Source: a virus
IMG/VR virus record: IMGVR_UViG_3300037087_000272
Coordinates: 1 to 41,526 of that record
DNA length: 41,526 nucleotides
Strand: one strand, 5' to 3'
The notes below the pieces were generated by a model. It saw only the letters and a list, made by a program, of their open reading frames with translations. It had not been told where the DNA came from and searched no databases. The number at the start of each line of letters is the position of its first letter. Position 1 is the first letter of the stretch. Below are positions 17,046-41,526 of the stretch, piece after piece. A program made the position numbers and the translations under genes.

Positions 17046-17153
17046 GCTCTCCTCCTTCAATCCTTCAGGTTATGCCAGCCGTCGCTTAAGAAAACCCGGT
17101 GGCAGGGAATAAAATGCCGGTGGAACAATTTCCAAATAAAGTGTTTGATGCTT

Positions 17154-18633: not shown

Positions 18634-18646
18634 AATTCCTTTATCT

Positions 18647-20287: not shown

Positions 20288-20963
20288 CCTGTTTTTCTTC
20301 GGCCTCTTGGTCTTTGCGCTTCTTGGCCATGGCCATCTGCAGCTCGGCGTCGCTGTAGCCGCTCAGATCTTCTGGCTTTGGCTTGGTGAGCTGCACTTCG
20401 CTGTGCGGCACGTAATCCCCCAGCATCTCAAAGGCCAGCTTGCGGTCCGGGTTGCTCCGGTGGTCGCTGTTCGATGCGCTCTCGATCAGCGCCTGGTAAA
20501 AATCGGCCCGGTGCTCCAGCAGCGGCGCCGCCTGCATCAAAGCCACCACCTCGTCGATGCCCGAATTTTTCTTCCGCCAGGTAAAGATCACCCTGGCCCC
20601 GGTCAGCCCCAGCACCTCGATTGCCAGCTTTTCCAGCGTTTCCGGCCACCGTCTTTTGCGTGGCGCCGACGCCCAGGCAATGTACGCCGCCACCCGCCAC
20701 GGCCAGCCGTTATTCCGCAGCAGCGAATAATCCTGCGTCCAATCCGCCGTAACGCGTTGAGCGGCATCTTTCTGCCCCTCTTTCTTGGACTGATTTGCCT
20801 GTGTCTGTGATTCCAAAACCTGCCGCGCCAGCTCTTTGCGCATAAAAACTTCAGCCGGGTTGGGGATTTCGGGGTGCGCATCCTCTGGCCGCACCGCTTC
20901 CGGCACGTCCAATCCCAGCGTCATCTGTTCGAGCTGCTCAGGTTTTAGCCAATCGATTTTCAT
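20280..20963 (-). CDS. Terminase small subunit (probable)
   Basis: A 227-residue protein directly upstream of and overlapping terL. The central part (WRVAAYIAWASAPRKRRWPETLEKLAIEVLG ... ARVIFTWRKKN) looks like an HTH DNA-binding segment. It is followed by a helical oligomerisation-like region with repeated aliphatic residues (VVALMQAAPLLEHRADFYQALIESA, then RKLAFEMLGDY), a pattern seen in small terminases of the phBC6A51 type. The C-terminus is highly charged. It has a good ribosome site (GAGGGAAGG). Role: recognition of the packaging site and handing DNA to terL. The call rests on location plus architecture. Confidence 0.75.
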   Translation of the reverse strand: MKIDWLKPEQLEQMTLGLDVPEAVRPEDAHPEIPNPAEVFMRKELARQVLESQTQANQSKKEGQKDAAQRVTADWTQDYSLLRNNGWPWRVAAYIAWASAPRKRRWPETLEKLAIEVLGLTGARVIFTWRKKNSGIDEVVALMQAAPLLEHRADFYQALIESASNSDHRSNPDRKLAFEMLGDYVPHSEVQLTKPKPEDLSGYSDAELQMAMAKKRKDQEAEEKQDE

Positions 20964-21247
20964 TGCCCTTCCCTCTTCTGGTTCCGGTTCATATTCCTGG
21001 CCGCCGCCACGATCGCCTCAACCCTGGCCCGCACGTTTTCATCGTGGCAACTCAGCTCCTTTGCCACGTTGCCCAGCGCCTCCACCACCGCCTGGTTGCG
21101 TTTCTCATACTCTGCGTCTCGTTTGTCGAGCGCATCCAGGTACCTGGTCTGCATCTCGTTGGCATTCTTTTGCATTTGGAGCGAATACCAGATAAAGATG
21201 GCAACTACCGGTAATTGCAATAAGAAGGACGGCCAGTCTGCTGACAT
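20960..21247 (-). CDS. Small membrane-anchored coiled-coil protein (possible holin/spanin-like)
   Basis: A 95-residue protein with one membrane span at residues 6-23 (PSFLLQLPVVAIFIWYSLQM) followed by a charged coiled coil (NEMQTRYLDALDKRDAEYEKRN) and a basic tail. The topology (short N-out, one TM, long helical tail) resembles bacterial and phage antiholins or i-spanin-like proteins. It overlaps the small terminase start by 4 bp and lies 3 nt after a polytopic holin-like gene. The pair probably forms the lysis-control unit, although the endolysin is far away at 38.8 kb. The assignment is inference from topology. Confidence 0.7.
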   Translation of the reverse strand: MSADWPSFLLQLPVVAIFIWYSLQMQKNANEMQTRYLDALDKRDAEYEKRNQAVVEALGNVAKELSCHDENVRARVEAIVAAARNMNRNQKREGQ

Positions 21248-21250
21248 GCC

Positions 21251-21754
21251 TTATCCGGCCTTTGGCGCTTTAGTCGTTGCGTCTGTGGTCACTTTGGCCT
21301 TTGCCACCACCACGCTGGCCACCGGCGGGGAGTATTGGTAGGTCGTCGAGTTGGTCCACAGCGCCGTTCCCCAGGATATAACCAGCAAGATCAATCCGGT
21401 GCTGTCCGGCGTCACAATCGCCACCACCTTGGTAAACGACAGCACGCCGATGATCACCGCCAGCCCCGTCACTGCCCCCAACATCCCCAAAGATTTGAAC
21501 GTTGGATCTTTCGCAGCCCACTTCTCCCGCCATACCGGCACGTAACTGGCGATCAAAGATAGCGCAGCAGCCGCCACATTTAAAAGCGCAGCCGGTTGCA
21601 GCAAAGTCTTCAGCAGCTCGCTCAACTGCTCCGGCGTTACAGCCCCTGGCGGGTTTTCGCTTTGCGCCCCCACTCTCACCGCCATCACCGCCAAAACAAC
21701 CAGCACGATCCCGAGGATCATCACCAACCTTCCGAGGAAATCTCTTGCCTTCAT
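21251..21754 (-). CDS. Holin-like integral membrane protein
   Basis: A 167-residue protein with an N-terminal hydrophobic segment (LVMILGIVLVVLAVMAVRV, residues 10-28, signal-anchor or signal peptide ending VGA-Q). Three further spans lie near residues 53-72 (AALLNVAAAALSLIASYV), 89-108 (LGMLGAVTGLAVIIGVL) and 118-134 (STGLILLVISWGTAL). A Thr/Ser/Lys tail follows. It has a strong AGGAGG ribosome site. The size and number of spans fit class I phage holins. Upstream lies a palindrome-rich intergenic region that may control it. Alternative: a virion-associated membrane protein. Confidence 0.65.
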   Translation of the reverse strand: MKARDFLGRLVMILGIVLVVLAVMAVRVGAQSENPPGAVTPEQLSELLKTLLQPAALLNVAAAALSLIASYVPVWREKWAAKDPTFKSLGMLGAVTGLAVIIGVLSFTKVVAIVTPDSTGLILLVISWGTALWTNSTTYQYSPPVASVVVAKAKVTTDATTKAPKAG

Positions 21755-21812
21755 CTCATCCTCCTGCCCCGAGGTCTTTTTCGGGGTGCCCTGCCTTTTG
21801 AGCTTAAACGTA

Positions 21813-21846
21813 GAGCGCCGGTTTCCTATATAGGAAACCGGCGCTC
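21813..21846. repeat. Perfect 34-bp palindrome upstream of holin-like gene
   Basis: The 17-nt half-site GAGCGCCGGTTTCCTAT is followed directly by its exact complement. The dyad centre is TATATA. It could be a protein-binding operator or a very stable cruciform/hairpin. There is no run of U after it in either direction, which argues against a simple intrinsic terminator. Confidence 0.9.
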
Positions 21847-22051
21847 ACTCGGTTGATTGGCCCGGGCGTCATCTCCCAGGCCTGCTTTCTTCACGACCGG
21901 CCTTATCGCCCTTTGGGTCGCCGGTCAAAAAAATAATTATCGTTACTAAAAACTGATTAACCGTAAAACCGTAACGTTTTACAAATCTGATTATGACTCT
22001 GATTGAATCCCGCGTCAAGCCCCAGTTTTCCCCCTCATAATTCCCTTCCCC

Positions 22052-22089
22052 GTGGTTATTTTGATCCACTTGTGGATCAAAATAACCAC
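22052..22089. repeat. Perfect 18-bp-arm inverted repeat
   Basis: GTGGTTATTTTGATCCAC (22052-22069) is separated by TT from its exact complement (22072-22089). On the minus strand the transcript would enter through a short U-run, then form the hairpin. That is the wrong order for an intrinsic terminator, so an operator or RNA structural element is more likely. Confidence 0.9.
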
Positions 22090-22103
22090 AATTAAAAAAA
22101 ACT

Positions 22104-22145
22104 CCCCCTCTCCACACGGTGGAGAGGGGGTAAGGGAGTGAGGTT
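22104..22145. repeat. GC-rich palindromic repeat, copy 4
   Basis: CCCCCTCTCCAC (22104-22115) and its complement (22119-22130) have a 3-nt loop, followed by GGGAGTGAGGTT. It lies next to the stop of the 112-residue gene (22147), again in the position just after a stop codon. Confidence 0.75.
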
Positions 22146-22146
22146 C

Positions 22147-22485
22147 TTACTCCGTCCCATACAGCGTGGCCAGCTCCTCGGTCGCCTTCTTCAGCTTCCC
22201 TTCCAGCTCCTCGCACCTGGCCCGCCACCCCAGCGCCTCTCCTCGCAGCTCCTCTTTTTGATCTCGCATTGTCTTCAAAATCCATGCTGCCAGAATCGGC
22301 TCATCGCCTGGAGGCGGAGATCCTGCCGGTTGGTAGCTCTGGAGCACTCCCATCACCCGCGCAAGTTGCTCTTCCTTTACTGCGAACAACATCTCGATGT
22401 GATCGGAGATCTGCATGGCCCTCTCCGAAGTTTGAGCGCTCCAAATTTCACGGACATAATATTTCAAGTCATTCTTTTCTGTCAT
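22147..22485 (-). CDS. Hypothetical coiled-coil protein
   Basis: A 112-residue protein (MTEKNDLKYYVREIWSAQ...) with a good ribosome site (GGAAGG). The N-terminal half is helical (RAMQISDHIEMLFAVKEEQLARVMGVLQSY). A Pro-rich turn (AGSPPPGDEP) leads to a second charged helix (ARCEELEGKLKKATEELATLYG) with heptad spacing. It is the last gene of the accessory cassette before the lysis region. There is no recognisable family. The form suggests a small oligomeric adaptor. Confidence 0.65.
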   Translation of the reverse strand: MTEKNDLKYYVREIWSAQTSERAMQISDHIEMLFAVKEEQLARVMGVLQSYQPAGSPPPGDEPILAAWILKTMRDQKEELRGEALGWRARCEELEGKLKKATEELATLYGTE

Positions 22486-22515
22486 TTATTCGCCTTCCTT
22501 CCTCTCTATCTTCCG

Positions 22516-22570
22516 ACCTGACAGGTTTACACTTGAACCTGTCAGGTTTGCTTTTCAAAACCTGACAGGT
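22516..22570 (-). promoter_or_regulatory. Three-copy ACCTGACAGGT element able to form alternative hairpins
   Basis: Copies at 22516-22528, 22536-22549 and 22557-22570 are alternately direct and inverted (ACCTGACAGGTTT, AACCTGTCAGGTTT, AAAACCTGACAGGT). The middle copy can pair with either neighbour (12-13 bp stems, 7-nt loops) but not both. The third copy overlaps the last codons of the 83-residue gene. The layout is that of an attenuator or an RNA switch between that gene and the 112-residue gene downstream. Alternatively it is a cluster of dyad operators. Confidence 0.55.
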
Positions 22571-22806
22571 CTTCTTTTCGCCTTCCTCGGGTACCAGTAG
22601 ATCGGGTGCACCTTCGCCCCTTCCGGAGCGCTTTCGACCACCACCGCCTTCAGGTGCCACCGGCCCACGTGCATCCCCTTCGTTTGCCGTCGCACCCCCA
22701 CCAGCAGGTAACATCTCCCACCCGGCGTCTCCAGCACATCCCCTTCCTGGATGCTCCTGGGCGAATCGTAATATAGCCCCACCACTGCCCCCGTCGGTGC
22801 TTTCAT
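22555..22806 (-). CDS. Hypothetical small beta-type protein
   Basis: An 83-residue protein (MKAPTGAVVGLYYDSP...). EGDVLETPGGRCYLLVGVRRQTKG and HVGRWHLKAVVVES suggest a compact small beta-barrel, as in phage 'SH3-like' host-interaction proteins. The end is basic (WYPRKAKRRPVRF) and could contact nucleic acid. The start overlaps the stop of the nucleotidyltransferase-like gene by 4 bp. Its last codons are part of a hairpin element. Function unknown. Confidence 0.65.
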   Translation of the reverse strand: MKAPTGAVVGLYYDSPRSIQEGDVLETPGGRCYLLVGVRRQTKGMHVGRWHLKAVVVESAPEGAKVHPIYWYPRKAKRRPVRF

Positions 22807-23387
22807 TTGAGCTCATCCGCACACAGAATCAGAGCATGCCGGACCTCTTTGGGATACTTCGCATTGGCATCCGTGTTCCTCTGAATCTGGAAGTCGATTG
22901 GCAGCCCTGTCACCTGTTTACCCAAGATCGAAAACGCTAGGCACATCGCCGACCATCGACGGTTCAGTATCTCCGGCCGCCCTATTTTTCCGAGCTGACG
23001 TTCATATTCCGCATCTTCGAGGATTAATCGCACGTCCACATCCCGCCACTGCTTGCCCATGGCCGCTGACCCCACCAGGTACGGCCATGCCCCAAAAGCC
23101 TCGTAAACTATTTTTCCAAATTGGTTTAACAAAATCCAGGCGGGCATGCCAACTCCAATAAATTTGTTTTTTGCTTCACCAATTTTTCTCTCACTTTCCA
23201 GGAATAACTTCATCATCCGCATCATTTCCCCTTGCCCTGTCCTGCGTGGCGCCCAGGAAAATATCCTCTCACCCTTCTCCATGTATTTAATCGCCCACAC
23301 CTGCCAGGGCAGTGGCTTCAAGTCCGGGTCCTGCTCCTTCCACCAGTCCAGGAACCCAACGCTGATTAGCATTTTATGTTTGCTCAT
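22803..23387 (-). CDS. Nucleotidyltransferase-like protein
   Basis: A 194-residue protein with a good ribosome site (GGAGGTGAAGG). The C-terminal half shows the nucleotidyltransferase pattern VGSAAMGKQWRDVDVRLIL (GS...DxD), then RRWSAMCLAFSILGKQVTGLPIDFQIQ, as found in phage-encoded minimal NTase-fold proteins. The first 60 residues differ: PLPWQVWAIKYMEKGERIFSW then APRRTGQGE, which echoes a helicase/terminase Q-motif plus P-loop but with the essential GK changed to GQ. It may be a fused remnant. Substrate unknown; an antidefence or DNA/RNA modification role is possible. The start overlaps the upstream gene by 14 bp. Confidence 0.65.
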   Translation of the reverse strand: MSKHKMLISVGFLDWWKEQDPDLKPLPWQVWAIKYMEKGERIFSWAPRRTGQGEMMRMMKLFLESERKIGEAKNKFIGVGMPAWILLNQFGKIVYEAFGAWPYLVGSAAMGKQWRDVDVRLILEDAEYERQLGKIGRPEILNRRWSAMCLAFSILGKQVTGLPIDFQIQRNTDANAKYPKEVRHALILCADELK

Positions 23388-23715
23388 CCTTCACCTCCAA
23401 CTTCTCCCACTCCGAAATCGCCTTCTCCAAACCGCACGTGCAGCCCCCCACCTCCACCCAGTCCATCAAACACTCTCCAGAGTGCCCCAGGAACCTCCGC
23501 AAGCCCTTTCCCGCCCTCATCAGGTCCTCCGCTAAGGCCTCCGCCCGCCGCGCGCGCCCTTGCACCTCTTGCAACCCCTTATGAGTAATATTGGCCCTCC
23601 GCCAAACATCCACCTCCCCCGCTCCGCTTCCCTTCGCGCAGAACCCCTGCAGGGTCAGGGAAGGGGCTGGTCGTAGATCCTGGATGCTTTTCCAGGGGGG
23701 ATAGGTCCTCATCAT
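23374..23715 (-). CDS. Hypothetical protein with helical body and a C-x-C motif
   Basis: A 113-residue frame starting MMRTYPPWKSIQDLRP. From about residue 38 onward it reads as a plausible helical protein (ANITHKGLQEVQGRARRAEALAEDLMRAGKGLRRFLG). It ends in CLMDWVEVGGCTCGLEKAISEWEKL. The first 37 residues are low-quality, and an alternative start with a better ribosome site exists in another frame at 23737. The gene may have a frameshift near its start or a later true start. The function is unknown. Confidence 0.5.
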   Translation of the reverse strand: MMRTYPPWKSIQDLRPAPSLTLQGFCAKGSGAGEVDVWRRANITHKGLQEVQGRARRAEALAEDLMRAGKGLRRFLGHSGECLMDWVEVGGCTCGLEKAISEWEKLEVKDEQT

Positions 23716-23737
23716 TCACATACTCCAATTCAGGCAT
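23579..23737 (-). CDS. Possible 52-residue ORF overlapping the 113-residue gene
   Basis: ATG 23737 (MPELEYVNDEDLSPLEKHPG) follows GGAGG by 5 nt and begins just before the stop of the upstream zinc-ribbon gene, which gives it a good initiation context. It then runs 52 codons and stops at 23579 inside the other frame. Either it is a short independent gene or the natural N-terminus of the 113-residue gene separated by a frameshift. Confidence 0.35.
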   Translation of the reverse strand: MPELEYVNDEDLSPLEKHPGSTTSPFPDPAGVLREGKRSGGGGCLAEGQYYS

Positions 23738-23903
23738 CTGAACCTCCTTCTTCCTCGTCTTCTAAAACGCCATCTTCCCACCCGCTGCCGTCGTCCTCCT
23801 CCTCCTCAACTCCTAAGCAGTGGGTGCACTCGACCACGTCCTCGAACCACGTGTCTTCCCCATCGCAGGCGCAGGCCTGCCCGCACTCCGGACACTCATG
23901 CAT
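23730..23903 (-). CDS. Small zinc-ribbon-like acidic protein
   Basis: A 57-residue frame (MHECPECGQACACDGEDTWF...) with an excellent ribosome site GGAGGTGA 5 nt before ATG 23903. Four cysteines in two knuckles (CPECG and CTHC, plus CAC) suggest a rubredoxin-like zinc ribbon. The last 25 residues are almost all acidic. It overlaps the exonuclease stop by 8 bp, so it is in the same coupled chain. Small zinc proteins next to exonuclease genes may be partners; no function can be assigned. Confidence 0.6.
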   Translation of the reverse strand: MHECPECGQACACDGEDTWFEDVVECTHCLGVEEEEDDGSGWEDGVLEDEEEGGSDA

Positions 23904-24918
23904 GGCTCACCTCCAATGTGTCAGTTGATAAATAATTGCTGGCCGCCATTTTCTTGATTAACTCCAGCGTCGCCAGGCAATCCCCGATCGCCGAATGATC
24001 CCCTCCAGGAAGCCGCTGCCACTTGTAATTCCCGTGGTAATCGTTCCATTCCCCAACGAAGGACGCATAATTACTCATTGCGCAGGCTAACCGCCTGGCG
24101 ACAATTCCGCTCGTCCCTTTACTGGATTGAGCGATCATCCGGATGTCAAAAGATACGTTATAAATCACCAGTATTTTGTTCCGCACCAGGTCCATCAACT
24201 TTCCGTCAATTTCGGCAAAACGTGGCGCGTCGACCACCATTTCATTGGTGATCCCGTGGATCCGGATGGCATCTTCCGGGATGCTGATCGATGGCTTAAC
24301 CAGCGTGTCCATCAATACCCGCCCTTCCATATCGATCAGACTGACTTGCACAATCTCAGCATCGTAATCCAGCCCGGTGGTTTCGGTGTCAAGGATAACC
24401 ACCTGATCCTTTTCCTCGAACAATGCCCTGGCCCAATCGATGGCGGCGTTTCGGTCCCTGGCGAACATCTTATCCATTGCTTTCTGACGCCGCTCCTCCT
24501 TGGCCCGCTCTCGTTCCTCCACCGCCTGAATCGCACCCGGCAGACAGTCCTTGCAAGCGTGGTACTCCTCATCCCACCTTTCCCGATAAACTTCTTTTTT
24601 GCACCAGGCACATTTCCGCAGCCTGGCCTTGCGCCGTTGTTCCCTTTCGGCCTTCAAAATTTCCTCTGAAACCGGAACGGCCTGCGCCAGGTCAAAAAGT
24701 TCGTACTCACCTTTCCCGCCCTGGACCACCCCGCACTTAGGACCGCCCGGCATCAACTTTCTCTTGCGCAGTTGGCCCTCTGTTCGCAGATTCTCCGGAG
24801 CCGTCAACCATTCATACCGCCGCACCCCTGGGCAGTCGGAAGATGGTCTGCTTTTCCAATGCCATCCGCAAACCGTACATTCAAATCCGCTGTCTATTTT
24901 GATAATTTCGTGTTTCAT
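23896..24918 (-). CDS. DnaQ-like DEDDh 3'-5' exonuclease with N-terminal zinc-finger region
   Basis: A 340-residue protein. The C-terminal exonuclease (about 170-330) carries ExoI VILDTETTGLD (D177, E179), ExoII VIYNVSFDIRMI (D258) and ExoIII GGDHSAIGDC (H308, D313), all DEDDh catalytic residues. The N-terminal 165 residues have two cysteine clusters: C14/C17 (CTVCGWHW) with C29, and C103-x2-C106 with C122-x2-C125 (CAWC...CKDC), the latter a clear zinc knuckle. The start overlaps the DUF5131 stop by 4 bp, with GGAGGTGAA upstream. Likely proofreading or nucleic-acid processing in phage replication or anti-defence. The zinc region is not typical of stand-alone DnaQ. Confidence 0.88.
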   Translation of the reverse strand: MKHEIIKIDSGFECTVCGWHWKSRPSSDCPGVRRYEWLTAPENLRTEGQLRKRKLMPGGPKCGVVQGGKGEYELFDLAQAVPVSEEILKAEREQRRKARLRKCAWCKKEVYRERWDEEYHACKDCLPGAIQAVEERERAKEERRQKAMDKMFARDRNAAIDWARALFEEKDQVVILDTETTGLDYDAEIVQVSLIDMEGRVLMDTLVKPSISIPEDAIRIHGITNEMVVDAPRFAEIDGKLMDLVRNKILVIYNVSFDIRMIAQSSKGTSGIVARRLACAMSNYASFVGEWNDYHGNYKWQRLPGGDHSAIGDCLATLELIKKMAASNYLSTDTLEVSHA

Positions 24919-26075
24919 TTCACCTCCGGGTACTCATCCCATAATTTCCCATCCAGCATCCGCCCGGCCGCCTTCTTGCCAACTCGATATGCAAAGCTAT
25001 GATCCTCAAATTCGTGATGGGTTAACCATAAGTGCGGGTAATGATTTAGCATTTTTTCCGCTTCTTGATTGATCGTTTCCCATGGCACATCTGGATCTTT
25101 CCATACCTGGCTGTCCGGGATCCACTCCCCCCACTGCTTGAACAGAAATGGAACTTTCGCCTTTGCGCAATGGTCTCGCAGCCACCCGGCCCAATTGGGG
25201 TGCATCGGCCTGGCCCCCGGACCGCTCTCACCCCCGCAGATTACCCAATCCAACCTCTTGCATCCACCTTGATAATCAGCCCACCCAGTTTTCGTGTGCC
25301 ACCCACGGAGCACATCCCAGGCCCAATTCTCGTTAATATTAATGTTCGTCAGATCCACCGGCCCCAGCATCGGCTCGCAGCTCACGAAGTGGACGACCGC
25401 CGGAGTATCCAGCAGCGCCGGTATTCGTTCCTCTGCCGCCTTCTGGCCCTCCACGCTTGTTCCCACCCACACATTCGGCAGTGGCCACCGGTTGAGGATC
25501 CCAACCGTCCGGCTGGGCAGCATCCACATTCCCAAGTTAATGTGTTCGACCTGGTCGAAATATGCCTTCATCCTTTCAGGTCGCTTTGTAAGTACCAGGT
25601 AAGTGTGCCGAGGGGTATCTGCCATTACTCCAAACATCTTATCGATGAAGCTCACCGGCACGTCCGGGTGGAACAAATCGCTCATCGAGCACACGAACAC
25701 CCGCTGCGGCGTCTTCCACTTCCCCGGCTCCCACAGCTTATCCTCGTGCAGTGTCACCTTAAACTGGTTCGGCTTCTCCGGGTACCCCGCCATCCCCGGG
25801 ATCCCGGCTGCCTGGTAAGCCAGGTCATTGCCTTGCGCGTAAGCCCTGGTCGTCTCGGTCACCGCCATCGCCCACGCCCGCGCTGGGTTGTCGTCCAGCA
25901 CTGGCTTCAGCAGCTCCACCAGGTCGCCCATGCTCTGCCCCGGGGTTTCCATCCAGCTCGCCAGCCTGGTGGCCATCCGCTCCGCGTAGCAGTGCGTGCA
26001 CCCGGCGCTCACCTTCGTGCACCCAGTGATCGGGTTCCACACCTGGTCCGCCCAAGAAATCTTAGTCTTTGCCAT
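24915..26075 (-). CDS. DUF5131 (phage Gp37/Gp68) family protein with an inserted 59-residue segment
   Basis: A 386-residue protein. The family signature is intact: ISWADQVWNPITGCTKVSAG then CTHCYAERMATRL (Cys cluster resembling the radical-SAM-like 4Fe-4S site), KWKTPQRVFVCSMSDLFHPD, TYLVLTKRPERM, FVSCEPMLGPVD, WVICGGESGPGARPM and FLFKQWGEW. Between ATRLA and GYPEKPNQFKVTLHE lies a 59-residue block identical to the head morphogenesis protein at 16.3 kb. It is in frame and replaces the usual short linker. Family members are usually about 230-330 residues; the insert largely accounts for the excess. Role uncertain in the literature (a metal-binding phage/bacterial protein). Whether this version folds is unclear. 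Confidence 0.85.
   Translation of the reverse strand: MAKTKISWADQVWNPITGCTKVSAGCTHCYAERMATRLASWMETPGQSMGDLVELLKPVLDDNPARAWAMAVTETTRAYAQGNDLAYQAAGIPGMAGYPEKPNQFKVTLHEDKLWEPGKWKTPQRVFVCSMSDLFHPDVPVSFIDKMFGVMADTPRHTYLVLTKRPERMKAYFDQVEHINLGMWMLPSRTVGILNRWPLPNVWVGTSVEGQKAAEERIPALLDTPAVVHFVSCEPMLGPVDLTNININENWAWDVLRGWHTKTGWADYQGGCKRLDWVICGGESGPGARPMHPNWAGWLRDHCAKAKVPFLFKQWGEWIPDSQVWKDPDVPWETINQEAEKMLNHYPHLWLTHHEFEDHSFAYRVGKKAAGRMLDGKLWDEYPEVK
25788..25965. repeat. 178-bp exact dispersed repeat, copy B (inside DUF5131 gene)
   Basis: Identical to 16318-16495, offset 9470 bp. The flanks on both sides belong to the DUF5131 family, so this is an insertion or replacement and not a chimeric join. Both outer left flanks contain GGTAC just before the identity starts, a short microhomology. 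Confidence 0.97.
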
Positions 26076-29773: not shown

Positions 29774-30055
29774 TCAGCTTAGATTGATGGTGATCTCTGT
29801 CACCTCGTCAACACCCTCGCCGGTGGAAACACTTAGCCAGCCCCCGGCCGCAATCACATACCAGCAATATTTCCGGCCGGTAGCGGGATTCGTGCTCCAG
29901 AACTGCAGGTCTCCACTGGGACCGACCTCGATCCATTCGGCGGCGACTTCTTCGGGATTTACATCTTCTTCTCGGACCGTGGGCAACTCGATGAGCCAAC
30001 TGCGCACAATGACTTTGATAACTCTCGTTTCTTGGCTGTTAGAAATAGTGTTCAT
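29774..30055 (-). CDS. Hypothetical protein first downstream of the iteron region
   Basis: A 93-residue protein (MNTISNSQETRVIKVIVRSW...) with a ribosome site AAAAAGGA 8 nt upstream. Beta-rich, with LIELPTVREEDV and two aromatic segments (DLQFWSTNPATGRKYCWYVIA) and a Gly-Val-rich end. The pattern could be a small all-beta fold. It is the first gene transcribed after the iteron/inverted-repeat region, so it may be regulated from there. No family recognised. Confidence 0.65.
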   Translation of the reverse strand: MNTISNSQETRVIKVIVRSWLIELPTVREEDVNPEEVAAEWIEVGPSGDLQFWSTNPATGRKYCWYVIAAGGWLSVSTGEGVDEVTEITINLS

Positions 30056-30508
30056 AATTCGATTCCTTTTTATTCTTCAAAATAACCAATGTTCATGGAA
30101 GTTCATGAAGTTCATAGAAATGCATATTCAATCCATTGAAAATCAAATTCAATCCATCTCTCTCCTTTCCGCCAGCAGGGCAAAATAGTGACGTTGTCAC
30201 CTGTATGTTCATAAATATTCATAATATTCATTTAAGAAATATGAATAAATGAATGAAAATCCTGTAATTCCCTCGCTTTGCAGCGAAATTACGCCATTTT
30301 GACCAAAAAACAGCCTTTTTTCTGCCCATGAACTTTATGAACTTCATGAACTTTGAATCCCCCAAAAGGGGGGTATTGCATATGTAATGTCGTGATGAAT
30401 CCAGAAAATCGCCCTTTTCTGCCCCAAACGACAAAACATATTGCGTACCCCCTCTTTTGGCACTTTGAAGTTCATGAAGTTCATGAAGTTCATTCAGCCC
30501 GGTTTTCA
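30056..30508. other. Iteron-rich intergenic region, candidate replication origin
   Basis: This 450-bp gap between the primase/helicase and the accessory genes holds three clusters of a 9-bp iteron (GAAGTTCAT): 30091-30115 (about 2.5 copies), 30328-30354 (3 copies, inverted) and 30467-30493 (3 perfect tandem copies). It also has an AT-rich stretch at 30201-30245 with repeated TATTCAT, a GTGAC-GTT-GTCAC dyad (30188-30200) and two copies of ATTCAATCCAT. A 93-codon minus frame runs through it but is made largely of iteron translation (HELHEL, FMKFIKFM). Iterons plus an AT-rich unwinding zone beside a replication gene are a typical origin layout. Confidence 0.6.
30328..30493. repeat. Long imperfect inverted repeat with 58-nt arms
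   Basis: Arms 30328-30385 and 30436-30493 pair imperfectly over 58 nt, with a 50-nt spacer. Each arm contains, from outside in, three iterons, then a CCAAAAGGGGG-type block, then a TTGCATATGT / GCAATATGT block. The left arm also has an inner CCCCC-AAAA-GGGGG mini-hairpin. The transcript or single-stranded DNA could fold into one large cruciform. Confidence 0.8.
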
Positions 30509-33500
30509 TCAGATCAAACTCCCTTGTTGGGGTGTCACAGGCGCCTCTTTTGGGTCTGCTGTCTCGGCTTTCGGGCCAAATTGCTCAGGTTTTACCCCGT
30601 ATTTAATGGACAGGCCGTGCATCCTGGGCAGGTCCCAGTACACGTAATATCCTTCGGTAAATCGATGTTGGCACATCTGCATTTGCAGTTCCTCGCGCAG
30701 GATATCGCCTACCTTTTTGGGCTTCACCGCCCGCCTGTTCTTTTTCTCTTCATCATCGTTCGCCGAGTCCCCGTTCATCTCGTCGATCAGGTTGTTCAAG
30801 ATCTCGCCGATCTTCCCGACCTTCATCATTTCCTTTCCCTCCGGGTCGATCTTCATCGTTGCATGCAGGTCCGGATAATTCCAGATCTTCCACATTGCTT
30901 CCAACACCCTGGCGCCCAGGCTCATGCTCATGGTCAGGATGTCGTCTGCGTAATACTCTCTCAATGTTTCCCGAATATCCTCTTGCTGTTGTGGGTCGTC
31001 CTTTGCGATTGCCAGCATGGGCCCGGCCACCTGGTTGAGCCGTGGGCTGATGGTCAGATCGTAAAATTCCTGCGGGATCGTGATCCCCTTTTGCCAGGTC
31101 TCCATCCTCCACCGCATCAGCATGTTGCAGATGAGCTGCGCCTGCGCCCGATGTTCATCCTCGATTTGCAGCGGGATATGTTTTTCGGAAAGCTCGGTCT
31201 GCGTTCGGCTGGTCAGCTTGATCGTCAGGGACCGGGTCCCCACCGCGTCGTCCTTAAAATCCTTGCGCATAGCGATTAGCTTGGGGCAGTAAGTTTGGAA
31301 GCTGCGCTCTTCGAAATCCCGCTCTCCGTTCGGACCGATCACTTCCACCGTCCGGAAGATTGGGTTATTGGCCATTGCCCCCGAGTTGTAGAATTTGATC
31401 ATCTCCGCCGCGGTGTCGCTGTCCGCCAGGTCCGCCTCGTCGATCTTGACCGTCCCCTTGTACCGCTCCACTGCCCGGAACAAACTGCTCACCGAAGCTG
31501 CGCCGCTTGCGCTCATCGTCCGGTAGCACAGCAGCCCCACCCGGTTGATAAATTCGCTCTTACCCGCTCCAGCCCCGCCCATCGCCCGCAGATAAATGAC
31601 CGTCCGAAAACAGTCATATAGCCATGTACCTAAGATCCAGTAGGCGATCAGGCGGCTCATCCTGGGGCTGGGCATGATGTAAATCCGGTTCAGGAACAGT
31701 TCGATGTACCCCGTCAGCTCTGCGATGGTTTTCTTATCCCCTACCGCCGAAGGAAAGGTAATTCCGGAGATGGCCATTGTATGAGTGGGTGGGTACGGCA
31801 GGTAGCGCCTGCCGTTGATGTCGATGCTCTCCCCGCTCCCGATTACCCCGTCCGGGTCCCTCCAGGCCAGCCACGCCTGGTCCGTGCCCACGTCGTACAG
31901 GTATTCCACCAGCCACTCGTCGATGTATCCTCCCCAGGTATAGACCGGCTCGCCTTGCAGTTTTTCTTTTTGCTCGTTGGCAGCGATCGTCTTCAGCAGG
32001 TTGGTCATCTCCCGCACGGTCGTTCCCAGCGCCTTGCACAGCTCCGTGCGGTACTGGCTCATCTCTACGTCGTTCAACCTGGCAATCACGCTCAGCGCAA
32101 ACCGCTGGCTCTTATCCCGGCTGACCCCCTTCTTTTTCCCTGCCCACCCCGCGATCGCCATCACCAGCGGCTCGGCGCAGTCCAGCACCTCGCTCTGTAG
32201 CCGTTCGGCTGGGGCCTTGCGGTTTGGGTCCTCCTCCGCTGCAGGCTCTTCTTCCTCGTACTGTTTTCCGCCCAGGCCGTCCGCATCTCCCCCCGCACCC
32301 CCCTCATCCGGAGGAGTAGCAGCAGCAGGCGCATCTTTTTCGGTGGCCATAGCCCTCTGCACCAGGCCTGCCAGGTAATCGTTGGCGTCCTTAACTTTGA
32401 AAGTTTTCTCGGTGGGCTTTTCGTCGCCAATCCCAGGGCACAATATCGTGAACGTCCTGCAGCCCCGGTCCGCCTGCCAGCGCACTACCCGCCCCATCGG
32501 CCCCACCAGATTGACCATCGGCCAATCTTCATCCTTGCCCAGCAGCGCCTTGTGCGCCGGGTCGTCCGCATCGGTCCCGAGGTAGATCGTTCGTTCGTAT
32601 TCTGCGCCGCTTTGTTTATATTTCCGCAGCCCGGCCAGCTCCTGGGCATTCTCCTCGGTTATCTTTTCACCAGGCAGCCCCAGCATGGCCACCGCAGCCA
32701 CCTTGAGCTGCGCCAGCGCCACCGCATCCCCCGGGCCCTCCACGATCACGAGCTCGTGACATCCCTGAGAGAACATGTAGTTGTAGTACAGCCGCTTGGG
32801 TCCCACCAGCGCCCGCGGCATCTCGTAGGCCTTGCGCTCCTTGCCGTCCCGGTCGATCTCGCTCCCCAATATATTGCGCGAGCTGAAGCCGGTCACCCGT
32901 CCCCGCTTGAAATGCGGAAACACCAGGCGTTTCGCCCCCAGCAGCCCCGAGATGTAACCCGGCTGCCCATCCTTGCCGAACCAGTTGGCGTTGGGCTCGA
33001 TGTCCCATTTATGCGCCCACCGGCTCACGTCTCCCTTGAACCCGCAGATCGCCACCACCTCCGGGCTTTCCAGGTCGTGCCCAACCATAGCCAGCGCCTC
33101 AGCCATCTCCTCTTTGGCGGCCTGTCCTCTCCCCGTAAACCCCAGCCCAGCGTCCTTGATGGTCTGCTCGCTGAAATACCGCGGCTTGCCCCCCGGAGTA
33201 GGGCCAGCAGTAGCATAGGCCCACGCTTCAGGATCTTCATGCAGCCACTTCGCCATGATCTGCACCGCAATTCCCCAGGCATCCTCCTTGCTGCGCGCTG
33301 CCTTCGCTGCCTGGCTGTTCTCTGGCGTATACTGTGGCACCTCCATGCCTGCCCGCTGCGCCAGGTATTCCAACGCCCGCATGAAGTCCCAGCCCGGGTT
33401 GCGATTGATAAGCCACGAGAACACGTCCCCGCCCTCCTTGTTGTGGCTGAACCAGGTGTACACTCCCCGCTCCACATTAACCGCCAGGCTGGGGTGATCG

Positions 33501-33622
33501 ATCCCTGTGATCTCTCGGCCCGGCCTGCGGTTTAGCCGGCAGTCGTTTGTCTCCTCGATTACATCCGCAATCGGGTTTTTGTCTTTAACTTCTTCGATGA
33601 ATGCCTTGAAATCAATCGCCAT
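30509..33622 (-). CDS. Primase-helicase with Toprim and superfamily-3/D5-like ATPase
   Basis: A 1037-residue replication protein, larger than most phage primases. Residues 1-95 resemble a CHC2 primase N-terminus (HPSLAVNVERGVYTWFSHNK then GGDVFSWLI), but the usual zinc cysteines are absent. Toprim catalytic motifs follow: VIVEGPGDA (E295) and GTDADD (D351, D353). After an acidic linker (about 425-475) comes the ATPase: Walker A GGAGAGKS (682-689) and Walker B TVKIDEADL (D728, E729). The sensor region and a basic C-terminus (RRAVKPKKVGDILRE) follow. Ribosome site AAGGA. It likely makes primers and unwinds DNA at the adjacent iteron region. Confidence 0.9.
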   Translation of the reverse strand: MAIDFKAFIEEVKDKNPIADVIEETNDCRLNRRPGREITGIDHPSLAVNVERGVYTWFSHNKEGGDVFSWLINRNPGWDFMRALEYLAQRAGMEVPQYTPENSQAAKAARSKEDAWGIAVQIMAKWLHEDPEAWAYATAGPTPGGKPRYFSEQTIKDAGLGFTGRGQAAKEEMAEALAMVGHDLESPEVVAICGFKGDVSRWAHKWDIEPNANWFGKDGQPGYISGLLGAKRLVFPHFKRGRVTGFSSRNILGSEIDRDGKERKAYEMPRALVGPKRLYYNYMFSQGCHELVIVEGPGDAVALAQLKVAAVAMLGLPGEKITEENAQELAGLRKYKQSGAEYERTIYLGTDADDPAHKALLGKDEDWPMVNLVGPMGRVVRWQADRGCRTFTILCPGIGDEKPTEKTFKVKDANDYLAGLVQRAMATEKDAPAAATPPDEGGAGGDADGLGGKQYEEEEPAAEEDPNRKAPAERLQSEVLDCAEPLVMAIAGWAGKKKGVSRDKSQRFALSVIARLNDVEMSQYRTELCKALGTTVREMTNLLKTIAANEQKEKLQGEPVYTWGGYIDEWLVEYLYDVGTDQAWLAWRDPDGVIGSGESIDINGRRYLPYPPTHTMAISGITFPSAVGDKKTIAELTGYIELFLNRIYIMPSPRMSRLIAYWILGTWLYDCFRTVIYLRAMGGAGAGKSEFINRVGLLCYRTMSASGAASVSSLFRAVERYKGTVKIDEADLADSDTAAEMIKFYNSGAMANNPIFRTVEVIGPNGERDFEERSFQTYCPKLIAMRKDFKDDAVGTRSLTIKLTSRTQTELSEKHIPLQIEDEHRAQAQLICNMLMRWRMETWQKGITIPQEFYDLTISPRLNQVAGPMLAIAKDDPQQQEDIRETLREYYADDILTMSMSLGARVLEAMWKIWNYPDLHATMKIDPEGKEMMKVGKIGEILNNLIDEMNGDSANDDEEKKNRRAVKPKKVGDILREELQMQMCQHRFTEGYYVYWDLPRMHGLSIKYGVKPEQFGPKAETADPKEAPVTPQQGSLI

Positions 33623-35380: not shown

Positions 35381-35584
35381 TCAGCTCCCTTTCACAATTG
35401 CCGTCAAAAATACCTTTTCTTTGTCCGCATCCGGATAGGTGCACGGATACGGCGTTGAATGCTCGATGATCTCGAGACCTTCAGCCTCCAGCAGCTCGGC
35501 GATCTTCGTCGCGAGGTCCTGGCTCACTCCACGCGTCGCCAGCACGCGGATCCTCACAACTCTCGGACTGGTTCCTTCGCTCAT
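35381..35584 (-). CDS. Small hypothetical protein coupled to the integrase
   Basis: A 67-residue protein (MSEGTSPRVVRIRVLATRG...). A good ribosome site (GGGAGG) lies inside the integrase end, and the start overlaps its stop as ATGA. The pattern VVRIRVLATRGVSQDLATKIAELLEAEGLEIIEHSTPY reads as a small beta-alpha-beta unit. A role beside the integrase, for example as an excision partner, is possible, but no HTH or basic wing is visible. Confidence 0.55.
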   Translation of the reverse strand: MSEGTSPRVVRIRVLATRGVSQDLATKIAELLEAEGLEIIEHSTPYPCTYPDADKEKVFLTAIVKGS

Positions 35585-36543
35585 TTGCCTCCCTTCCCTT
35601 TCATCTTTCCCAGCGCCACGCCTTCAACTGCCTCTTCCAGATCTTCCCACCCTGGGAGTGTGTACCGCTGCGTCGTGCTGATCTTTGCGTGCCCCAGGAT
35701 CTTGCGCACCACCGTGATCGGCGTCCCCGCATCCACCATCCGCTTGGCGCACGTGTGGCGCAGTCGGTGCGGCGTCAGGCCATCGACCTTGGCCGATTCT
35801 CCGATCGCTGCGACCCGTTCCTGGATGGCGCCTACAGTCAGCCGCTGCCAGATATCGTTGACAAACAGGTATTCAGATCCCACCGGCCGCACCTTCAGCC
35901 ACTGGCTGATCGCCCGCCTGGCTTCCACGTTCAGCGGCACCCGGCGGTACTTCTGACCCTTGCCCAACCGCACCACCACTACGCCCGATCGCTCGCCGAT
36001 CTCCACGTCGCTGATCAGCAGATCCACCAGCTCGCCTACCCGCAGCCCCGCATAGACCATCACACTCACTGCCGCCGCGTCTCGCAAAGCCCGATAGCGC
36101 CGCAGCATGGTATTTGCCCCGATCGTATCCAGCTCGAGCTGCCGCATCAGCCGCCCAAACTCGGCCTTGGTCAGCCAGTGGGGCGCCTCGTCTTCTGCGT
36201 CTGCTGTTGCAATGAATTCCATCGGGTCGTGCACGATCTGCCCACTCTTCTGGAAGCAACCCATGAACACCTTCATGCTGGCATGCCGCCGGTTCCACGT
36301 CGCCGGCTTGTAATGCTTCACCTCCAGGCACCAGGTGCGGTATGCCCGCAGGTCCCACGAGTTGAGCAGCTCCGGGCTGAATGCCTGGCCGTTCGCTTCC
36401 TGGAACCAGGCCGCAAAGCCTGCAAGGTCAACCAGGTAGTTTTTGATCGTCAGCGCGCTCTTGCCTCGTTGGGTCAGTACGTTCTCAAACTCCCCCATCC
36501 AATCCGTGGCTGCCGCCACATTCACTGCTGTCTGTTGTTTCAT
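35581..36543 (-). CDS. Tyrosine recombinase / integrase (Xer-like)
   Basis: 320 residues from ATG 36543 (MKQQTAVNVAAATDW), chosen because AAGGAG lies 6 nt upstream; the ATG at 36549 abuts it. The N-terminus is a SAM-like core-binding domain (VLTQRGKSALTIKNYLVDLAGFAAW). The catalytic domain has R168 (AGLRVGEL), a K region (GKGQKYRRVPL), HxxR (PHRLRHTCAKRMVDAG), GH (KILGHAKISTTQRYT) and nucleophile Y294, so all active-site residues are present. Known chemistry: Holliday-junction-forming recombination. It could integrate the phage or resolve genome multimers. A serine recombinase also occurs in this genome. Confidence 0.92.
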   Translation of the reverse strand: MKQQTAVNVAAATDWMGEFENVLTQRGKSALTIKNYLVDLAGFAAWFQEANGQAFSPELLNSWDLRAYRTWCLEVKHYKPATWNRRHASMKVFMGCFQKSGQIVHDPMEFIATADAEDEAPHWLTKAEFGRLMRQLELDTIGANTMLRRYRALRDAAAVSVMVYAGLRVGELVDLLISDVEIGERSGVVVVRLGKGQKYRRVPLNVEARRAISQWLKVRPVGSEYLFVNDIWQRLTVGAIQERVAAIGESAKVDGLTPHRLRHTCAKRMVDAGTPITVVRKILGHAKISTTQRYTLPGWEDLEEAVEGVALGKMKGKGGK

Positions 36544-36580
36544 ATCCATCTCCTTATCTGTTTTTGAAGTACCGATTGCC

Positions 36581-37036: not shown

Positions 37037-37134
37037 ATTAAATTAAATGATCGACCCTGGATCCAATCCAACTCCTCGACAGATTATTCGATGGCTTCTT
37101 GTTCCGGAACTATTGGTCAATAAATCGGGTCGGT

Positions 37135-38799
37135 ATGCTCTCCATTTCCCCCTTTCAACACGGTGCCCAGGTCGTCGCCTACCTGCGTGACTCAGGCGGC
37201 GACGATCAGGACCTCTCGGTCCCTCAGCAAGAGGCTTCCATCGCCGCCTGGTGCGTCGACCATGGCCTGATCCTGACCCGCATTTTCAAAGACTTGGCCC
37301 GCCCGGGCTCTTCGGTCATTTCCCGTGATGGCTTCAACGAAATGATGCACTACCTGCGCGCAGCTCAGCAGCCCGAGGCTGGCCTGCTCATCTGGAATTA
37401 TCAGCGCTTCTCCCGCTCGCTCGACGACTCTCAGTTCTACCGGGCCGACATTCGCCGCCATGGTTACCTCTTCTTTTCTCTCAACGATGAAATCCCCGAA
37501 GGCCCCATTGGCAAACTCTTCGAAGCCATCATTGATTGGAAGAACGAACAGTTCCTTCTCGACCTCTCGGTCGATATCAAGCGCGGCCTGCGGGCTTTGG
37601 TTGAAAAATACCATGTAATTCCAGGCGTTCCGCCCCGTGGCTACAAACGTGAGCCACTACAGCTCGGCTCCCGACGGGATGGTTCTCCCCACACCGTCCA
37701 CCGTTGGGTCCCCGATCCTGAGACCTGGGATCGTTGCTGCCAGGCCTTCGAGATGCGCGCCCGCAACGCCTCCTATGCTCAAATCCAGGGCGCCACGCAT
37801 CTCTTTGGCAGCCTCAATTCTTACAAGGATTTTTTCACCAACGCCATCTATCACGGCGAGCTGCATTATGCCGACCTGGTCATCCCGGACGCCTTCGAAC
37901 CCCTGGTCGACGAAAACACCTGGCAGGCCGTCCAAAAGGTCAACGGACAGAATTCCCGCAACGCTCCCTTACGCCAGGACCCAACCAATCCCCGCCGGCG
38001 AGCCAGCCATTTCCTGCTCAGCGGCCTTGTCCGCTGCGCCCGCTGCGGTGGCCTGCTGAATGGCCATATCATCAAGGTCCACAAGAAACCCGGCCACGAT
38101 TATTATGCCTGCTCCACCCGCCAGCGCAAACATACCTGCGATGCCCAGCAGATCCCCCGCGCCGTCCTGGAGAAAGCCGTCGTCGACCACCTGGTTGATT
38201 TTCTCAATCACCCCGAAGTCATTCTCGCCCACCAGGCCCAGCAGGCCCAAGATGCCGAGCAGGAAGCGGCCGTTCTGGCAGCCGAACGCGCCGACCTCAA
38301 CCGTCGCCTGGCCAACGTGCGCCGGCGTATTAATAATGTCAACGAAGTCCTTGCCGATCAGGGTACCGATGCCCCACGTTCCACTATCGCCAAACTCGCC
38401 GCTCTGGAAGCCGAAGAAACTGAGATCCAGACCGATCTCGCCAAAATAAAACATGATCTACCTCCGGCCACTCATTACACTCTTCACCAGCTCCACACCC
38501 TCGCCAATCGTATCCAGCGCCTCTATACCCTCCCCGATCCGGAGCCCTTACGCCAGGTATTCCTCGGCATCATCGCCACTCTCACCGTTGAACGGGATGG
38601 TTCCACCATTCGCGGGCTCCTGCAGTTCTACCTCCCCCCCGAGCCCGAATCAAAAGAGGGCGAAGACCCTTCCGGATCTTCGCCCTCTTCAGCTCGTAAG
38701 CTAGATTTTATGCCTACGAAAAGGTGCCCCTGTCCACCTTCACCCCGTAGGCATAAATTTACAATTTCCTTCAATATTCCAATAAAATCAAATTCTTGA
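37135..38799 (+). CDS. Large serine recombinase
   Basis: The only plus-strand gene, 554 residues from ATG 37135 (MLSISPFQHGAQVVA); a TTG at 37099 in frame is possible. The catalytic domain starts VVAYLRDSGGDDQDLSVPQQ, with the nucleophile S20 in the YxRxS context, and continues with LIWNYQRFSRS (R91, R94 region). The recombinase domain follows (VPPRGYKRE ... FFTNAIYHGEL). A zinc ribbon has C301, C304, C326 and C335 (CARCGG ... YYACSTRQRKHTC). A long coiled coil (about 365-440) is typical of large serine integrases. It likely catalyses integration and, with a directionality factor, excision. The last 50 residues read through two hairpin-forming sequences and look non-conserved. Confidence 0.9.
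   Translation: MLSISPFQHGAQVVAYLRDSGGDDQDLSVPQQEASIAAWCVDHGLILTRIFKDLARPGSSVISRDGFNEMMHYLRAAQQPEAGLLIWNYQRFSRSLDDSQFYRADIRRHGYLFFSLNDEIPEGPIGKLFEAIIDWKNEQFLLDLSVDIKRGLRALVEKYHVIPGVPPRGYKREPLQLGSRRDGSPHTVHRWVPDPETWDRCCQAFEMRARNASYAQIQGATHLFGSLNSYKDFFTNAIYHGELHYADLVIPDAFEPLVDENTWQAVQKVNGQNSRNAPLRQDPTNPRRRASHFLLSGLVRCARCGGLLNGHIIKVHKKPGHDYYACSTRQRKHTCDAQQIPRAVLEKAVVDHLVDFLNHPEVILAHQAQQAQDAEQEAAVLAAERADLNRRLANVRRRINNVNEVLADQGTDAPRSTIAKLAALEAEETEIQTDLAKIKHDLPPATHYTLHQLHTLANRIQRLYTLPDPEPLRQVFLGIIATLTVERDGSTIRGLLQFYLPPEPESKEGEDPSGSSPSSARKLDFMPTKRCPCPPSPRRHKFTISFNIPIKSNS
38654..38689 (+). terminator. 13-bp hairpin in the 3' end of the recombinase gene
   Basis: AAGAGGGCGAAGA (38654-38666) pairs perfectly with TCTTCGCCCTCTT (38677-38689), with a 10-nt loop. 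It resembles an intrinsic terminator stem, but it lies inside the coding frame. Genes converge here (the GH25 endolysin ends at 38817 on the other strand), so a bidirectional terminator would make sense. Confidence 0.55.
38707..38757. other. 51-bp nested inverted repeat: terminator or candidate attP
   Basis: Outer arms TTTATGCCTACG (38707-38718) and CGTAGGCATAAA (38746-38757) and inner arms AAGGTG (38721-38726) and CACCTT (38735-38740) are nested around the centre CCCCTGTC. The size and symmetry fit a serine-integrase attP of about 50 bp, and attP is often next to the integrase gene. Equally, it may be the convergent terminator of the recombinase and endolysin genes. No second copy is expected in the phage. 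Confidence 0.45.
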
Positions 38800-39692: not shown

Positions 39693-41526
39693 TAGATTAT
39701 CTTTCCCGGGATTGGTCCGATTAACAAGGATGCGTTGTGGAGCTGCTTCAGCCACTCCCCCATACTACCGGCTCCCCAACTGGTAGCTGTAAGTGCTTCG
39801 AAGACAGCCCTTGCTACGTCGAAGAATGGGATGATCGCATAGGTCGAGCTGCTGTCCGGGTTGGTCGTCCAGGCCCGGTTGATGGCCAACGTTTTGCTTG
39901 ATCCGGTGTAGTCGGTGATTCTCCTGGCCTGGCCGGTCCCTGTTCCCGATGTGATCACTACGTAGTTTTCGTTGTAGTAGTCGTCGACTGCCGAAGCGCT
40001 GCTGTCCAGCACAAGGGTTGATCCGGTGGCAGAGGCTACGGTGCTCTGTCTAACCAGCATCGCTTTGATCCTCTCCCCCATCGACCCTGCTCCGTAGTCG
40101 GTGCTCGAAGCTGCATTCCACACGTCCTGAGCTGACAGGGCCGTCGAAATCTGTTCAGGAATTGGCATCCCACCGGCCCAATATTTTAGGGTGTTCGTCT
40201 CTCCGACATATCCCGACGGATATGCAAAGCTCCGGTCAGCCCAGTAGACGTAGGCGTTACTTCCTGCCGCATCTGTCTGCATCGAGAGAGTGACAGTGCA
40301 GGATGGGTACGAGGTGGCGGGATCGAATACCAGATAGAGTTTCTGCCAGCCGGTCGTCTGTGTGGCGATTGCTGATGCCGGGCAGAAGGTCGTCCCGTTA
40401 TCGTAGTTGACTGTTAGTCTTGGCATGGTGCTTACTCCCGCCCAAAAAGCGGCATTGTTGATCTTGCACCACACCGATATCTGAACAGTCTTATCAGGAT
40501 TAGCCTGGACGTTGCCGACGAACTGATCCCATGCCCAGGAAGCTGCTCCATAGGCGTACCCTGGATTCTCCATCCTGACACAGAACTCCCCGGAGTTGCG
40601 AACTGTTGTATCTGTCAATCCTGCTCCGGTAGCGTAATAGACACCATAGTTATCGTACCAACGGTGTGCTCCAGCGACAGCACCGAAGTCCTTGAAACGA
40701 ATTCGAGTACCATCAGCTCCACTGACGTGAGGCTCATACCCAGTTGACCATAGAAGAGGTGAGCCAAATGAGCAGCTATCGAGTAGGAAGTCCGGAGATA
40801 ATCCAGCCGTCAGGCTCAGATCGCCAGAGTTGTTGTACCCCTTTGTGCCGAATAGCACCCCGGTAAACGTTGCAAGAGGGCCAGTACCATTGATGACCAG
40901 TCCCTTTCTGCTACAGTGGATTTCGCCAGTCACCGTTCCCCCGTATCCGGGCCCAAGAAGAAGACCGCCAAGTCCGCTACCCGCAGCTCGATTGCACCCA
41001 TACGCTCTATAGTTCAGAAGATTCACCTTCGAGCCGGTGATATAGGCGCCATTACCATACATGCCGAATGCCGCCAGATCTTGAATAGTCGTGTTTGGGG
41101 CATTGACGAATATTGGGTAGGTTGGATCGACAGTCGCTCCGGAACTATACAGAGTCAACCCGGTGAAGGTTTTCACTGTTCTATTATTCACCATGTACCA
41201 GCATGTTGTTGGTGTCGAGCCGGTTTGCCCTCCCGTGATGCCAACGTTATAATCGAACACGGTCGTCTGCGTGAAAGCAGTTTGCGTGCAGGGCCGCAAT
41301 CCCTCTTTATTGGCAATATTTGAGCCAGTGTTCTCGTGTCTTACCCACTGGATGGTTGTCGTCCCCGGGGTGATATTGTTGTTCTGGGCATACCAGCCAT
41401 GAGCAACCGCGCTGGATTTGGTGATCACATTGCGGGTAAGGTTTCGGACTTCGACGTTAGCGGAGTGAGTGTAGGTTAGAGCTGCTTCAGCCCCACCCGC
41501 AGTCGTACTGAGAACATATGAGGTAG
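39692..41526 (-). CDS. Tail fibre / receptor-binding-like protein, C-terminal part (continues from 1..1211 across the join)
   Basis: The frame is open to the right edge and joins in frame, through the 166-bp overlap, to the frame that starts at ATG 1211; the combined product is about 959 residues. A GTG at 41428 is only an internal codon. After the overlap a beta-helix-like region is visible (GLTLYSSGATVDPT ... FGMYGNGAYITGSKVNLLNY ... GLVINGTGPLATFTGVLFG). A jelly-roll/CBM-like segment follows (VQISVWCKINNAAFW ... WQKLYLVFDPATSY). A C-terminal module is typical of phage fibre tips (YNENYVVITSGTGTGQARRITDYTG). It is likely a host-surface polysaccharide-binding fibre. The stop overlaps the GH25 start (TAATG). 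Confidence 0.82.
   Translation of the reverse strand, partial: TSYVLSTTAGGAEAALTYTHSANVEVRNLTRNVITKSSAVAHGWYAQNNNITPGTTTIQWVRHENTGSNIANKEGLRPCTQTAFTQTTVFDYNVGITGGQTGSTPTTCWYMVNNRTVKTFTGLTLYSSGATVDPTYPIFVNAPNTTIQDLAAFGMYGNGAYITGSKVNLLNYRAYGCNRAAGSGLGGLLLGPGYGGTVTGEIHCSRKGLVINGTGPLATFTGVLFGTKGYNNSGDLSLTAGLSPDFLLDSCSFGSPLLWSTGYEPHVSGADGTRIRFKDFGAVAGAHRWYDNYGVYYATGAGLTDTTVRNSGEFCVRMENPGYAYGAASWAWDQFVGNVQANPDKTVQISVWCKINNAAFWAGVSTMPRLTVNYDNGTTFCPASAIATQTTGWQKLYLVFDPATSYPSCTVTLSMQTDAAGSNAYVYWADRSFAYPSGYVGETNTLKYWAGGMPIPEQISTALSAQDVWNAASSTDYGAGSMGERIKAMLVRQSTVASATGSTLVLDSSASAVDDYYNENYVVITSGTGTGQARRITDYTGSSKTLAINRAWTTNPDSSSTYAIIPFFDVARAVFEALTATSWGAGSMGEWLKQLHNASLLIGPIPGKII
41361..41526. repeat. Right copy of 166-bp terminal direct repeat
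   Basis: Identical to 1-166 except T at 41400 against C at 40. In the tail fibre frame this changes one codon from CGT (Arg, left copy) to CAT (His, right copy), in the sequence AVA(R/H)GWYAQ. Confidence 0.9.

Follow-up and report, generated by a model that had tools for sequence, protein, structure and literature searches.

The 453-bp intergenic region at positions 30056-30508 of a tailed phage genome is probably the replication origin of the phage, bound by the phage's own primase-helicase. This reading of the sequence was supported by the position of the region, by its anatomy and by the recurrence of its layout behind distant primase-helicase genes. The stretch analysed, hereafter the window, was the whole of the virus record IMGVR_UViG_3300037087_000272 in IMG/VR (positions 1-41,526; 41,526 bases).

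Genome context and anatomy of the region

The two ends of the window formed a 166-bp direct repeat with one mismatch (1-166 and 41361-41526), and the window is therefore probably a near-complete circular or permuted genome of ~41.4 kb (about 41.36 kb). Its gene content was that of a tailed phage, with a terminase large subunit, a portal, a head protease and a weak tape-measure match, together with an exonuclease, tyrosine and serine recombinases and an endolysin. The tyrosine recombinase and the large serine recombinase (35581-36549 and 37099-38799) were found on opposite strands, within 3.3 kb. A protein encoded at 24915-26075 was DUF5131/Gp37-Gp68-like and shared ~40% identity with many proteins from phages of Mycobacterium and Gordonia. 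An exact 178-bp direct repeat was present at 16318-16495 and 25788-25965, 9,470 bp apart. One virus contig (L009; 9,546 bp, its ends repeating over 76 bp) matched 16369-25914 at 100%, carried the terminase and portal genes and closed inside the 178-bp repeat. It is either a deletion circle produced by recombination between the two copies or an assembly loop. Given this internal repeat, the window contig may be imperfectly assembled.

The region lies between the primase-helicase gene and a small downstream gene (Table 1). The site had been described as directly following the primase-helicase gene, and indeed only 15 bp separate cluster C from the stop codon (30509, minus strand). A second 93-aa ORF, at 30228-30509, overlaps the iterons; it had no family match and was taken as non-coding.

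Table 1. Features of the putative origin and its flanking genes, with positions in the window
Feature	Position	Strand	Basis
Next downstream gene, 93 aa, without known family	29774..30055	-	ORF list, family searches
Iteron cluster A: two exact copies and degenerate TGTTCATG	30089..30115	+	Word count, Tandem Repeats Finder
GTGACgttGTCAC dyad (GTGAC-GTT-GTCAC), at the edge of the AT-rich zone	30188..30200	.	Sequence and site scan
AT-rich zone with TATTCAT repeats, 78-85% AT, separating clusters A and B; candidate site of melting	30196..30255	.	Composition, repeat scan
Long hairpin/cruciform potential: 66-nt arms and inner hairpin 30402-30421	30326..30495	.	Repeat search, folding
Iteron cluster B: three copies (1 exact, 2 with one mismatch), inverted relative to A and C	30328..30354	-	Word count, Tandem Repeats Finder
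Iteron cluster C: three exact GAAGTTCAT, ending 15 bp short of the primase-helicase stop codon	30467..30493	+	Word count, Tandem Repeats Finder
Primase-helicase, 1037 aa: N-terminal CHC2 zinc ribbon and TOPRIM (DnaG type), AAA+ helicase domain at residues ~610-870 (DUF3631-like)	30509..33622	-	Pfam, TIGR01391, homologs, alignment, fold matches

The 9-bp iteron GAAGTTCAT had six exact copies in the 41.5-kb window, all within 30098-30493, against a mean of 0.18 and a maximum of 2 expected by shuffling. Eight copies were found when one mismatch was allowed, and a ninth, AATGTTCAT at 30088, has two mismatches, in keeping with the original prediction of eight or nine copies in three clusters. Tandem Repeats Finder recovered the three 9-bp arrays and, within the AT-rich zone, a fourth of looser structure. 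That zone of TATTCAT repeats and the GTGAC dyad, both noted earlier as neighbours of the inverted repeat, were found as well. A G-run (30368-30373) adjoins the iterons.

Clusters B and C form the outer part of an inverted repeat with 66-nt arms (30328-30393 and 30428-30493) that are 77% complementary and separated by a 34-nt gap, which itself prolongs the stem. The imperfect repeat predicted at this place, with 58-nt arms and a 50-nt spacer, was thus present, but it is larger than had been thought. The ~170 nt at 30326-30495, which begin 13 bp past the primase-helicase stop codon, folded as a single hairpin, with z -11.0 as DNA and z -12.0 as minus-strand RNA (MFE -87.5 kcal/mol); 0 of 200 shuffles were as stable. 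Relative to GC content, no other part of the window folded as strongly (5 SD). The unit TGAA(G/C)TTCA is close to a perfect palindrome, and for this reason pairing between the iteron blocks is not independent evidence of a stem. The inner part, however, also folded without the iterons (z -6.9 for 30355-30466 and -8.4 for 30360-30460), as the pairing of the inner blocks had been claimed to do, and the long stem is therefore real. No Rfam family was found for the region. Next in rank for fold strength relative to GC content was a stretch adjoining two other palindromes, located between small genes: a perfect one of 34 bp (21813-21846) and a near-perfect one of 38 bp (22052-22089).

The primase-helicase and the layout behind distant relatives

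The N-terminus of the primase-helicase matched PF01807 (CHC2, residues 7-97; 1.9e-5), PF01751 (TOPRIM, residues 290-357; 0.0014) and TIGR01391 (dnaG; 1.2e-12). No archaeo-eukaryotic prim/pol domain was present in the protein; its N-terminus is of the DnaG type, with CHC2 and TOPRIM. Residues ~570-910 matched two bacterial loci (L143, 4e-40; L144, 6e-39), and in an alignment with DUF3631 proteins the Walker and arginine positions corresponded. The sequence had no match in the PDB. A model of residues 560-1037 had a mean pLDDT of 68.6, most of the C-terminal 140 residues being poor (low-confidence helices and strands). The modelled helicase resembled MCM (Z about 16), papilloma E1, SV40 T antigen, the primase-polymerase of phage NrS-1 and the primase-helicase of SaPI5 (7ola; E 2e-4). 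From the domain, alignment and fold matches together we conclude that the enzyme joins an AAA+ replicative helicase to a DnaG-type primase in one protein.

No close relatives of either the primase-helicase or the region were detected, and for the protein IMG/VR gave none. Among annotated phages the sole match to the protein was in Virus Rctr41k (22.8% over 226 residues), plasmids gave just weak partial matches, and contigs sharing the DUF5131/Gp37-like neighbour gene had no related primase-helicase. Recurrence of the layout was examined in 26 primase-helicase genes collected by protein similarity or family search. For each gene, the most frequent 6-mer with its reverse complement was counted in the 500 bp around the stop codon and compared with dinucleotide shuffles. 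The two preceding and the one following 500-bp stretches (n=76) and the ends of 160 long phage genes served as controls.

A 6-mer excess at the 3′ end was found in 12 of the 26 genes at p<=0.01 and in 18 at p<=0.05 (11/25 and 17/25 without L111, the only member originally picked by its iteron pattern), some of the genes being related (L111/L112; L116/L119) and hence not all independent. The neighbouring stretches reached these thresholds in 0/76 and 5/76 cases, and the other phage gene ends in 2/160 and 8/160, which is chance level. Folds with z<-3 were likewise found at 12 of the 26 gene ends, against 3/26, 0/26 and 1/24 in the three control stretches (4/76 in total). By the same scripts the window gave p 0.013 for the word measure and z -8.6 for the fold measure. 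No word excess was seen in about a third of the 26 homologs, among them L144, which is one of the two closest.

The repeated word varied with the gene. It was GTTCATGAA in L111, GTTCACAAC in L114, CGTCAGT in L116, TGTTCC in L132, GTAGCGG in L133 and GGGGACGT in L143, which is the other of the two closest helicase relatives. Across the DUF3631 genes and L143, 3′ arrays were built from TGTTCC, GTAGCGG, GGTTACG, TCCGTGAC, GTGACA and GGGGACGT. L107 is a Ferrovum mobile element that a scan for the triple-word pattern picked out among four genome contigs. In L107/L111 the helicase gene ends in a triple TTCATGAA, the same as in the window phage, located in its final codons. In L107 the array forms these codons (...NEVHEVHEVHAEEI) and an inverted array follows ~190 bp further. 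Two relatives of L107 (82% and 46% identical) have inverted arrays at the same place with altered words, GTTCACCAA and GTTCACAAC, and more distant ones use CGTCAGT. Taken together, the counts are a statistical sign that 3′ iterons may be common behind DUF3631-type and L107-type helicase genes.

The tail of the DUF3631 helicase of L183 reads TSVTIVTMVTPVTLAP, which looks as though DNA iterons in the final codons had left their mark in the protein; the 6-mer test missed it. Prim-Pol genes were left out of the test set, their flanks having been measured from the N-terminal domain, often short of the gene end. Tandem triplets were detected in 1 of the 10 loci with Prim-Pol genes found by family, where flanks had this same limit. 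GTTCA repeats with GGGGGG blocks were observed a few hundred bases past a Prim-Pol/PriCT-1/AAA_25 gene in L098 (9960-10120) and L104 (2680-2840).

Several other matches to the triple word were set aside. Four virus contigs with TTCATGAA (L004-L007) belong to another phage group, carry the word near the terminase gene and had no match to the window helicase; the word alone thus does not identify the system. Their arrays of TTCATGAA/GTTCAT and TGAAC-rich repeats around an (ATT)n-rich stretch (L004:700-1200, L005:6030-6460, L006:8950-9500 and L007:2360-2850) lie in a long stretch of non-coding DNA and look like a different origin region. Most matches with double copies of the word were located inside coding sequence and look like chance. 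Two matches from one Sedimentisphaerales genome (L108 and L109) look like dispersed chromosomal repeats, and L110 looks like an ordinary intergenic site.

Origin function and alternative explanations

At such an origin the primase-helicase would assemble on the GAAGTTCAT iterons, by analogy probably through its C-terminal domain, and, with clusters facing in opposite directions, two helicase hexamers could be placed. Melting would, again by analogy, begin in the AT-rich zone flanked by clusters A and B. The enzyme would then unwind the DNA, after which its TOPRIM domain would prime synthesis. The hairpin of clusters B and C could extrude in supercoiled DNA and might help loading or expose single strands. 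A more far-reaching proposal makes the hairpin an active part, rather than a mere consequence of inverted iterons: as a cruciform in supercoiled DNA, its iteron-bearing arms would offer the AAA+ primase-helicase two opposed loading sites, so that the phage origin would be read by sequence and DNA shape jointly, a principle that would be common to many primase-helicase genes with inverted 3′ iterons. We put this forward tentatively and consider it rather doubtful.

The GC-skew profile, which had been suggested as a check on the origin, was uninformative. Cumulative skew fell almost unbroken across the window, as would be expected with nearly all of the long genes on one strand, and no turn was seen at 30 kb.

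The region could instead be regulatory, its iterons serving as operators to which a phage regulator, or the primase-helicase as autorepressor, would bind, and its hairpin acting in the part of the transcript between the primase-helicase and the next gene, for example by limiting readthrough or protecting a 3′ end. Both flanking genes are encoded on the minus strand, so that transcription would pass through the hairpin, and it is as RNA that its z of -12 would count here; cluster A, in addition, lies ~33 bp ahead of the start codon of the 29774-30055 ORF. However, the site scan found no minus-strand terminator-like site and no sigma-70-like promoter, and the iterons do not occur in the rest of the window. 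The recurrence of differing iteron words specifically behind primase-helicase genes also fits origins better, and we regard the regulatory explanation as unlikely. Rep proteins often autoregulate through origin iterons, and the regulatory and origin readings are not exclusive. That the region is a small mobile inverted-repeat (MITE-like) element, or a repeat expansion, placed behind the gene by chance is suggested by the 66-nt imperfect inverted repeats and by the tendency of tandem arrays to expand by slippage. Yet it is present as a single copy in the window, no target duplication flanks its ends when the sequence is read by eye, and the third cluster and the AT-rich zone are outside the repeat. 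The triple word has different surroundings in the other virus contigs, no identical elements were found at unrelated loci, and homologous genes have other words at this same position. Such an origin by insertion or expansion is extremely improbable.

A rolling-circle origin, double-strand or single-strand, with the hairpin as nick or priming site, also has to be weighed, as it was proposed by Joshua et al. for the similar stem-loop of pRN1 (PMC3869888). It was disputed for pRN1 by Berkner et al. (PMC4234260), however, and no relaxase/HUH or Rep_trans nickase was found among the larger ORFs scanned in the window, the small ORFs being partly covered. The adjacent gene, moreover, encodes a primase-helicase, which fits theta-type initiation. 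A rolling-circle origin is very unlikely.

Known systems and implications

The alpha protein of satellite phage P4 is the element's own primase-helicase and recognises short iterons; ori and crr of P4 are separate sites and not one region behind the gene. The likeness to the window lies in the element's own primase-helicase and the short iterons, and P4 is set beside the window by description only. P4 alpha and its cognate site are mentioned in PMC6092414. In Gram-negative PICI, the 3′ end of rep is directly followed by two sets of iterons with an AT-rich region between them, and rep-ori replicates plasmids autonomously (PMC6092414). The SaPI Rep recognises iterons directly downstream of its own gene via its C-terminal domain (PMC7581432). 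The window shares with these systems (SaPI1, SaPIbov1, EcCICFT073; pri-rep-ori) the iterons directly 3′ of the initiator gene, as in cluster C, the two iteron sets around an AT-rich region, here clusters A and B, and an AAA+ initiator helicase with a fused or adjacent primase. These systems are satellites, whereas the window carries the virion genes of a tailed phage (terminase large subunit, portal, head protease, tape measure); their primase is archaeo-eukaryotic rather than of the CHC2/TOPRIM type. The window differs also in having a third cluster and in carrying two of its clusters within the 170-nt hairpin.

At the putative SCCmec origin, Cch2 binds via its C-terminal domain three short iterons (5 nt, AAGTG) located directly downstream of its gene. 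Cch2 requires these iterons for unwinding, and inverted repeats are dispensable for binding (PMC7581432). Direct repeats just downstream of the helicase gene are common to Cch2 and the window, but the word is another one and the Cch2 helicase belongs to the D5_N/Primase_Cterm family. Replication of pRN1 depends on a ~100-nt stem-loop located shortly after the primase-helicase gene, and phage BIP-1 has been noted to carry a similar structure (PMC4234260, PMC3869888); the counterpart in the window is the 170-nt hairpin. No iterons have been described in the pRN1 stem-loop, whereas in the window the iterons form the stem, and the pRN1 initiator again has an archaeo-eukaryotic primase.

The original prediction of a candidate new-type origin was thus supported as to the origin, through position, anatomy and recurrence, but not as to the type, since layouts of this kind are known from phage satellites and a few plasmids, those of PICI/SaPI and pRN1 having been published. 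The region is probably a hairpin-rich variant in a full tailed phage, with a wider helicase set than reported, and not a new origin type. It differs in the complete tailed phage, the DnaG-type primase, the iterons that build a 170-nt hairpin and the further cluster beyond the AT-rich zone, to which the statistical sign of 3′ iterons behind DUF3631-type and L107-type helicase genes is added. Among open-licence papers, none was found that describes the wider 3′-iteron pattern.

Our results suggest that the layout extends to a full tailed phage and to helicases of the DUF3631 type in Pseudomonadota. The origins of most uncultured phages are unknown, hence the value of prediction from sequence. 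Should it prove general that iterons sit at the 3′ end of the primase-helicase gene or just beyond it, origins and initiator words would be predictable in this way across many mobile elements. With each gene's own word lying beside the protein that should read it, such loci would provide ready protein-DNA pairs for learning the recognition code.
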